This document shows positions 1-44,092 of a stretch of 44,092 bases of DNA, in pieces (position 1 is the stretch's first letter; the number at the start of each line of letters is the position of its first letter). A program made the position numbers and the translations under genes. Source of the DNA: Verrucomicrobiota bacterium (GTDB lineage Bacteria; Verrucomicrobiota; Verrucomicrobiia; Chthoniobacterales; JAFAMB01); NCBI GenBank assembly GCA_019246215.1, contig JAFAQT010000031.1, positions 1 to 44,092 on the forward strand, in the 5' to 3' direction. The notes under the pieces are model-generated. The model ran no database searches. It was given only the letters and a program-made list of their open reading frames with translations, and had not been told where the DNA came from.

Positions 1-170
1 CTCCAAAGAACCGGCTCCAGAACTCTGGAAGATGAAGCGGCCCTCAACGGTTCTGGACAGACAGTGGTAAAAACCCTGCCCCTCGGCTTTGACCCGGGGA
101 AAACGCATAAGCGAGGGCTACATTACACAACATAGAATAAAAGTGTAGATCAAATTAAACATTCGCCGCA

Positions 171-246
171 ACATTTGACCTGTCCGTGCCACAACCCCAC
201 ATTTGACCTGTCCCCTTCATAACCTTCTGTCCCCTTCATAACCTTC
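171..246. repeat. Modular short repeat: two copies of acatttgacctgtcc (171-185, 200-214) followed by a perfect 19-bp tandem duplication tgtccccttcataaccttc (209-227, 228-246)
   Basis: Read directly from the sequence; both units are identical over the stated spans. Confidence 0.9.
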
Positions 247-4411: not shown

Positions 4412-6496
4412 TTATTTGAAGACAATCGGGATAATCAGAATGGCTACGATGTTCGCAACTTTGATCATGGGATTGATGGCGGGGCCTGAGGTGTCTTTGT
4501 ACGGATCGCCGACCGTATCGCCAGTGACAGCAGCTTGGTGCGCGGGAGATCCTTTCCCGCCGTGGTGACCTTCCTCGATATATTTCTTGGCGTTGTCCCA
4601 TGCGCCGCCGCCGGAAGTCATTGAGATCGCAACAAACAATCCAGTCACAATCGTCCCGACCAGAACAGCTCCCAGCATCACATATCCAAAAAACGATGCC
4701 ACTAGGACAAACACCACTGGGAGAAGCGCCGGAACAATCATCTCCTTCAGAGCTGCTTTGGTGACGATATCCACGCATTTTCCGTATTCTGGGGTTTCAG
4801 TTCCGGTCAAAATCCCAGGTTTACTCTGCAGCTGTCGGCGCACTTCTTTCACGACTGCACCGGCAGCTTTTCCGACAGCTTGCATGCTGAGCGAACTGAA
4901 AAGAAAGGGCAAGAGTCCGCCAACGAATAGTCCGATGATAACTTTGGGCTGTTCCAGCGAATATTCAGAAGAATGCGTTTCGTGACCCCCGAGAGAAGAG
5001 AAATGAGCCCTCAGTTCCGAGACATAGGAACCAAAAAGAACTAGGGCTGCCAATCCGGCGGAAGCAATCGCGTAGCCCTTTGTAACCGCTTTCATTGTGT
5101 TTCCGACTGCATCCAATTCGTCGGTTACCGCCCTAGTCGATTTAGGCAAGTCGCTCATCACAGCCACTCCGCCCGCGTTATCGGTAATCGGACCGAACGC
5201 ATCGAGGGAAATGATTGTCCCGGCCATGGAGAGCATGCTCATCACTGCGATTGCGATCCCGTAAAGTCCAACGCACGAATAACTCAGGATGATCGCAAGC
5301 CCGATAAAGATCACCGGCAAAGCTGTCGCTTGCTGACCGATCGCTAGACCGGAAATGATATTGGTAGCGTGACCGGTCTCTGACGCGAGCGCAATACTGC
5401 GAACTGGTTTGAACGCCGTCGACGTGTAGTAATTCGTGATCGCAACGATGATTCCTGTCATCACCAGGCCGATCAGAGTGGCCAGATAAATCTGTCTGGA
5501 CGTGTAAGCGGATGGTCCAACCTGAATCGTGGCTGGAAATAGTAACTTTGTTGCAGGCCAGTAAAGAATTGCGGAGACAAGCGCGTTCACCCCGACTGCC
5601 TCCACCAGTACCTGTGTCGGACCCGTTTTCCGAAAGCTCACCCACCAAATCGCCACAATCGCACCGATTACCGAGATCCCACCCAACAGGAAAGGGTAAA
5701 CAATGGCCGCGGGCGAATTTTGAACGGTCAGGGACCCTATAAGCATCGCCCCGATAACGCTCACCGCATACGTCTCGAAGACATCCGCAGCCATCCCAGC
5801 ACAGTCTCCCACGTTATCGCCGACGTTATCCGCGATGGTGGCGGGATTCCGAGGATCGTCCTCCTCGAGTTGACTCTCGATTTTGCCGACCAAATCGGCC
5901 CCGACGTCCGCGGCCTTCGTATAGATGCCGCCGCCTAAACGGGCAAAAACGCTGATCAGACTGGCTCCGAGCGCTAACCCAACCAGACTGTTGACGGCTC
6001 TCTCCTGGCTTCCAAGGACCGCTTCTCCGACCTTGTAATACAGTCCTACCGATAATAAAGCGAGACCGACAACCAGCAATCCCGTCACCGCCCCGCCGTT
6101 AAAGGCGACGCGAAGCGCCGCATGCTTTGAACTCATGGCGGCCTGTGCGGTGCGCGAATTTGACAACACAGCGATACGCATGCCGATGTATCCGGCGGCC
6201 ATTGAGCAAGCGGCTCCGAGAAGGAACCCAAGCGACGTATAAAAACCTCTGGCAAAAACCAGGATCACGAAAATCACAGTTGCGATCAGGCCCACGGACA
6301 CGACCTGTCGATGCAGGTACGCCTTTGCCCCTTCCTCCACAGCGCCGGAGATCTGAATCATGCGGTCATTGCCGGCAGAACACGAAATCACCGAACGAAC
6401 GAGATAATAAGCGAAGCCTAGACCCACGAGTCCGCACAACAGGGCTAACCAAACACCAGAGTTTGAAAGGAAGGTTAAAAAAAAAGGAAACATCAT
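4412..6496 (-). CDS. hppA: Membrane-bound (vacuolar-type) proton-translocating pyrophosphatase
   Basis: Multi-TM 694 aa; [78 protein letters not shown]. Confidence 0.96.
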
Positions 6497-43522: not shown

Positions 43523-43682
43523 TCCCGAGAGAAGGCACCCGTACACGCATTTTGCAGGACCTAGCAAACTGCCAATTCGAGGAGCGTTCCGATCTTCGGG
43601 GACTTTTGTGCCGCAGAATCGCTTTTGTTTCTTCGACAGCCAGGTCTCACGTTCTCAAGCCAGCGACAGTTCAAATCTTGGG

Positions 43683-43758
43683 ACAGCCGAAAGGGAGGGA
43701 TTACCGTTGAACTCGAGGACAGCCGAAAGGGGACGACAGCCGAAAGGGACAGGTCAAA
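43683..43758. repeat. Modular array with acagccgaaaggg units (3 copies) ending in agggacaggtcaaa
   Basis: Direct reading: acagccgaaagggag..., acagccgaaaggggac, acagccgaaagggacaggtcaaagg. Confidence 0.85.
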
Positions 43759-43896
43759 GGTTGATGTCCGCTCGCAAACCTGTCTGCGGGGATTGAAAAC
43801 CGGTCTCCCTAAATAGGAGGGCAGAAATCGGCTCAGCCACCTTTCATCATTACCGCTGAACTCGAGGATTTAGCTGCGCGTGATTTGACCTGTCCC
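43746..43896. repeat. 13-bp perfect inverted repeat gggacaggtcaaa / tttgacctgtccc, plus a direct repeat attaccg[t/c]tgaactcgagga about 150 bp apart
   Basis: gggacaggtcaaa at 43746-43758 and tttgacctgtccc at 43884-43896. The direct repeat starts near 43700 and 43850. Confidence 0.85.
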
Positions 43897-43998
43897 CGTG
43901 GCTATAGCGTAGCGTTGCCCCCGCAGCTATATAAATGTCCTGCGGTAAGAGAATTTCGGACCATCCACCAGATCTCGCACCTGCGCCCCGATATCTGA

Positions 43999-44082
43999 CC
44001 TGTCCCCTGACTTCGGGCTCCTGTCCCCTGACTTCGGGCTCCCCTGACTTCGGGCCGTGCTGTCCCCTGACTTCGGGCCGTG
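43999..44082. repeat. Short tandem array: two perfect 21-bp units cctgtcccctgacttcgggct (43999-44019, 44020-44040) plus two variant units
   Basis: cccctgacttcgggc occurs four times within 84 bp. Confidence 0.95.
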
Positions 44083-44092
44083 AATTTCGACC

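Follow-up and report, generated by a model that had tools for sequence, protein, structure and literature searches.

What kind of element carries a short array in which a constant purine core alternates with a locally duplicated variable segment, and how does such an array arise? The question is raised by positions 171-246 of the window, a stretch of 44,092 nucleotides from a Verrucomicrobiota bacterium that is the whole of one contig (C384) in a 3.8-Mb genome bin of 443 contigs. Read directly on the minus strand, these positions are GAAGGTTATGAA-GGGGACA-GAAGGTTATGAA-GGGGACAGGTCAAATGT-GGGGTTGTGGCAC-GGACAGGTCAAATGT, exactly as an earlier note on this sequence had parsed them, and the arrangement is not a product of chance. 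That note described a constant core alternating with a variable unit. The layout is right, but the first copies of the variable unit end inside the core, so the repeating unit is the variable segment X together with the first few nucleotides of the core and not a free-standing X. With the 14-mer GGGGACAGGTCAAA and up to two mismatches, five matches were found in the window, all at its two ends: 174 and 202 (both minus) at the left end, and 43745 (plus), 43884 (minus) and 43994 (minus) at the right end, where the core had also been noticed before. Shuffled controls gave 0.38 matches on average, and none of 100 shuffles reached five. A search of the window against Rfam gave no match above the gathering score.

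The left-end array and its transposase gene

The window begins inside a gene. On the minus strand, positions 1-108 hold the opening 36 codons of a Y1/HUH transposase gene (TIRYT), the rest of which lies beyond the contig end (MRFPRVKAEGQGFYHCLSRTVEGRFIFQSSGAGSLE), as identified by translation and protein match; positions 7-108 (minus) share 68% identity over 34 amino acids (residues 1-34) with an intact 333-aa protein from the same genus. The earlier guess of a Y1/RAYT-type transposase was right, and the gene lies nearer than had been supposed. Upstream of the start codon, a leader (109-170, minus), common to three gene copies in pairwise alignments of contigs C384, C402 and C91, is followed by the inner terminal-repeat core GGACAGGTCAAATG (172-187, minus), about 77 bp from the start codon. 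Beyond it lie a variable spacer GGGGTTGTGGCAC (188-200, minus), which separates two cores and differs at every gene copy, an outer core that matches GGGGACAGGTCAAAT exactly (201-215, minus), and a stuttered outer flank, GAAGGTTATGAA-GGGGACA-GAAGGTTATGAA (216-246, minus), with a unit of 19 nt and 2-nt microhomology. The array at 171-246 is the upstream terminal repeat of a Y1 transposon of the TIRtron/TIRYT kind, which has GGGGWSAS ends (PMC3733652).

The gene is present in this genome as fragments only, all at contig ends. The leader and gene start recur at 95-100% at two further contig ends (C402 and C91), and a C-terminal fragment lies on C95, adjoining two elements. A GGGGACAG-type core adjoins all three gene 5' ends (C384, C402 and C91). 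Where compared, the three genes start with identical coding sequence while the arrays upstream of them differ, as expected after recent movement. Intact copies of 333 or 334 aa occur in genomes of the same genus, in one of which a large array of these cores immediately precedes the 333-aa Y1 gene. A Pfam Y1_Tnp search of the window's own genome detected only a different RAYT, on C28, with a GTAG-type repeat, and the same-genus protein was therefore needed as query. The flanks of the C28 RAYT gene (L009 1285-1863) carry a classical-looking REP, GTAGCATAGGCTTCCAGCCTGTG, at about 1050-1080, 1920-1950 and 2040-2075. This repeat is unrelated to the GGGGACAGGTC ends, and two Y1 systems coexist in the genome. 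On C91 (L014 ~4897-5000), a transposase with an internal deletion was read by eye from the shared leader and coding pieces, the leader being joined directly to later coding sequence (GAGGCCCAGAAATTTG); deletions of this type are a possible route to non-autonomous elements.

Catalytic residues were read on intact copies, the copy in the window being truncated. H64, H66 and Y175-x-x-x-N179-P180 are invariant in 25 homologues. The 333-aa protein contains THYH and YVDLNP motifs, and its AlphaFold model (mean pLDDT 83.7) predicts three extra helices between beta3 and alphaC. In fold, the model is closest to TnpA-REP 4er8, followed by the TnpA proteins of IS608 and ISDra2, the latter of which is also found by a sequence profile search of the PDB. 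The best NCBIfam match is REP_Tyr_transpos, with a score below its cut-off.

Distribution of the cores

The core is enriched across the genome, in line with the family of small elements proposed in the earlier note: exact GGGACAGGTCAAAT occurs 15 times in the 3.8 Mb against 0 for its reversed control, and the 14-mer core with at most one mismatch has 37 matches against 1 for the reversed pattern. Matches cluster, often near contig ends, and the end sequences are dispersed as singles, dimers and groups, a distribution like that of mobile DNA. Conservation is limited to GGGACAGGTCRRAT, the sequence being unconserved both outside and inside it; the end is only about 14 bp long, with GGGACAGGTCRRAT inverted at the opposite end. 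Many cores form inverted pairs, about 60 to 370 bp apart. A common interior for the elements was considered and rejected because interiors match within one locus only. These ends are carried by many non-autonomous copies with locus-specific interiors.

The variable segment was expected to be uniform at any one locus and to change from locus to locus. This is borne out at 51 cores of this genome: when the 12 nt outside the core were compared in pairs, 12 of 54 same-locus pairs were at least 75% alike, as were none of the 1,134 pairs drawn from different loci. X was rejected as a target-site duplication because a single element has unlike flanks at its two ends.

The right end of the window carries one such non-autonomous element, 151 bp long and lying between inverted cores (43746-43896), identified by comparison of interiors. 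Its interior is 95% like that of a copy at the end of contig C229 and unrelated to interiors elsewhere. To its left, a duplication scan and the sequence itself reveal a stuttered outer flank of GACAGCCGAAA-GGG units (43680-43745, plus). Further right, a core matching GGGGACAGGTCAGAT (43993-44007, minus) adjoins another stuttered outer flank (44008-44092, minus), which duplications and copy comparison resolve into GAGCCCGAAGTCA or CACGGCCCGAAGTCA plus GGGGA or GGGGACAG.

Homologues of the transposase at E 1e-20 or better are present in 56 of 289 genomes drawn from the phylum. A forward core lies within 250 bp upstream of the start codon in 12 of 29 homologous genes, mostly at 58-113 bp, a range that includes the distance of about 77 bp in the window, compared with 2 of 106 control windows. 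Six more of the 29 have a core in the opposite orientation upstream, which gives 18 of 29 with both orientations counted. A downstream inverted core within 300 bp was found in only three of the 29, and the right end is the weaker one.

Comparison with genomes of the same genus identified sites without the element. The cluster on C422 (L023 4450-4770) occupies an intergenic gap of about 320 bp, against about 80 and 47 bp in G001 (C5) and G002 (C108); the aligned G001 site contains no core, and the relatives are without the element at this locus. G001 is also without the C402 insertion. Cores are present in G001, and a search of it with the transposase as query detected no homologue. Exact insertion points are unreadable because the intergenic DNA of the relatives is too diverged, and none of five genomes yielded an intact version of the IS256-like or IS200-like genes that are interrupted.

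Tandem duplications and break points at the cores

The repeated unit is the outer flank X with the start of the core (X-GGGGAC), in tandem, and element ends copy 8-17 bases of neighbouring DNA. Of tandem duplications with a period of 9-45 nt, 28 were counted in the 7,496 bp that surround cores, against 9 in 167,759 bp of other sequence. Perfect or near-perfect ones are about 70-fold denser at cores, as measured on sampled contig stretches of the same genome. Duplications are enriched at homologous genes from the phylum as well, with 60 in 22.9 kb around GGGACA-type cores and 26 in 217.9 kb elsewhere; many of the 60 come from two arrays, in L217 and L234. The earlier description of a conserved anchor that locally amplifies adjacent sequence fits these data well. 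Going beyond it, the anchor serves an autonomous transposon as its terminal repeat, the copied unit has a preferred cut-off inside the core, and the pattern extends to other taxa.

Break points fall after GGGGA, GGGGAC or GGGGACA in 25 of 36 duplications, where 8.7 would be expected if they were uniform within the unit. None of 20,000 simulations placed 25 in these three positions; the simulation takes duplications as independent, which in arrays they are not fully. No consensus is visible at the upstream end of the duplicated unit. Five duplications in same-genus copies run inward and begin 0-3 nt past the G run, matching the outward break site; two outward units that had been sorted in with them are not counted. 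Junction microhomology is absent in 23 of 50 cases and at most 2 nt in 40 of 50, while microhomology of at least 2 nt is somewhat commoner than chance. In the literature searched, where only PMC3733652 and PMC6006769 bore directly on these elements, we found no earlier description of a break-point rule with a preferred position inside the core. Set on a known TIRYT background, the rule predicts a testable cutting site.

Nearly identical copies reveal recent change. The flank at 44008-44092 has exactly one 21-nt unit more than its near-identical copy at the end of C229. Contigs C206 and C268 share a flank; one element end differs between them by exactly one 20-nt unit and the other by a 78-nt insert. 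The one-unit differences are either population alleles or recent duplicates, and under both a unit was recently gained or lost.

From the gene, the ends, their mobility-like distribution and the clustered break points, we infer a nick at about GGGGAC^AG. The array probably forms the upstream terminal repeats of a mobile element that has a Y1 (HUH) transposase gene of its own and is locally re-copied from this nick. The transposase would act on single-stranded DNA and nick one strand at this position. The freed 3' end on X-GGGGAC would move back 11-17 nt, with hardly any homology or none, and the flank would then be copied or joined again, so that one X-GGGGAC unit is gained per event. Less often, duplication may proceed inward from this same nick. 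The break points are scattered over 3 nt, a wider spread than expected of a single precise Y1 cut. The nick model would explain the origin of short locus-specific tandem repeats beside the elements, as well as the assembly breaks there.

The main rival needs no enzyme. The ends would still be TIRYT terminal repeats, and the stutter would come from ordinary replication slippage at a G-rich end that is hard to copy, with no role for the transposase. The short G runs, the units of 10-26 nt, typical of slippage, and the above-chance microhomology of at least 2 nt suit this explanation, and the last of these indicates that slippage may contribute. Slippage, however, needs pre-existing direct repeats, which nearly half of the 50 junctions lack altogether, and it does not account for outward units ending, and inward units starting, at one 3-nt place; we regard it as unlikely to be the whole cause. 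Rather unlikely, too, is growth of the arrays by nested insertion of solo ends beside resident ends, with the stutter as a by-product of each insertion and not of later nicking. Two facts speak for it. All four 5' ends in this genome (window 171-215; L022 160-240; L014 4840-4910; L014 5035-5095) carry two cores with a spacer of 13-26 nt that is different each time, and one copy in the same genus stands at a large array in which the flanks are of many kinds. Simple duplication of X and core cannot make paired cores with differing spacers, which the transposase-nick model leaves unexplained. Yet near-identical copies differ by one unit with no new core, which means that units are gained and lost after insertion too.

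Two further readings have very little probability. The clusters sit at contig ends, and a single binned genome supplies both of the overlapping contig pairs, as might be seen if the duplications were assembly errors of a short-read metagenome bin. The stutter nevertheless occurs in the single-contig genome G322 and, in several copies, in the two-contig genome G224, which argues against assembly error; the same layout is present on long contigs in G066, and X is different at each locus. A classical GTAG-hairpin REPIN/RAYT system would share the class 2 Y1 transposase and the short repeats in inverted pairs, but the ends here have neither a GTAG head nor a conserved hairpin, their conservation is confined to 14 nt, and the classical-type RAYT of this genome, on C28, has a different repeat that does have the GTAG head. 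It is hardly credible as an account of the array.

Known Y1 systems and other taxa

The closest known systems are the TIRtrons or TIRYTs, in which a Y1 gene lies between inverted GGGGWSAS ends and further copies of the ends lie scattered as dimers and clusters (Di Nocera et al., 2013, PMC3733652). A Y1 transposase, inverted ends of the GGGGWSAS type and dispersed ends were all found here, and the copies characterised here are from Verrucomicrobiota. We found no mention in PMC3733652 of outer flanks that are duplicated locally with a truncated 3' end, nor of breaks at a preferred position. RAYT/REP and REPIN systems share with these elements a transposase of related type, short repeats that are believed to move in trans, and tandem reiteration, REP clusters having been reported to reiterate together with flanking DNA (PMC3733652). 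REPs carry GTAG at the foot of a hairpin, whereas the ends here have neither feature and only GGGACAGGTCRRAT is conserved. The HUH-Y1 catalytic core and the fold match are shared with IS200/IS605 elements (IS608 and ISDra2), which have subterminal hairpins and no inverted ends; the ends here are inverted 14-bp repeats, with no conserved subterminal hairpin sequence.

TnpA-Y1 subclass 2.3 comprises proteins of about 325-330 aa with NHYH and YVDLNP motifs, a beta3-alphaC insert and an extra long C-terminal domain (Quentin et al., 2018, PMC6006769). By this published description, the TIRYT examined here resembles subclass 2.3 in its length (333 aa), YVDLNP motif and predicted extra helices, with THYH instead of NHYH. 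In the same survey neither subclass 2.1 nor subclass 2.3 had a REP-like sequence beside it, whereas genes of this type have GGGACAGG ends here; the survey considered subclass 2.1 as probably equal to the TIRYTs of Di Nocera et al. (PMC3733652). More tentatively, the stutter may be the footprint of the nicking site for a whole class of Y1 transposases, with GGGGAC^AG recut while the element stays in place and the enzymes acting as local tandem-duplication engines for the DNA beside it. If so, the cleavage specificity of these domesticated-looking Y1 enzymes could be read from sequence alone. The break points predict a cutting position for Y1 genes like these, which resemble the large subclasses that lack classical REPs and here have defined ends.

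The 15-mer GGGGACAGGTCAAAT is present in many other phyla among the matches listed, many of which may be due to chance. It adjoins Y1 genes in a Desulfitobacterium and a Treponema MAG and has stuttered flanks in a Desulfitobacterium and a Clostridia MAG. In Lachnospiraceae-type genomes, one of them complete, the core bounds near-perfect palindromes of about 80 bp (L096 4915-4993 and L099 2435-2511). An array of about 500 bp lies directly upstream of an intact transposase gene (L029 192-1190, minus) in the same-genus genome G002. Its numerous cores all have separate flanks, often duplicated, and the array looks as if it grows outward. In L217 (G112), very dense GATGCCGGGGACAGACCCC-type arrays flank the transposase on both sides (about 980-1230 and 2550-2720), and core and flank merge into a minisatellite.
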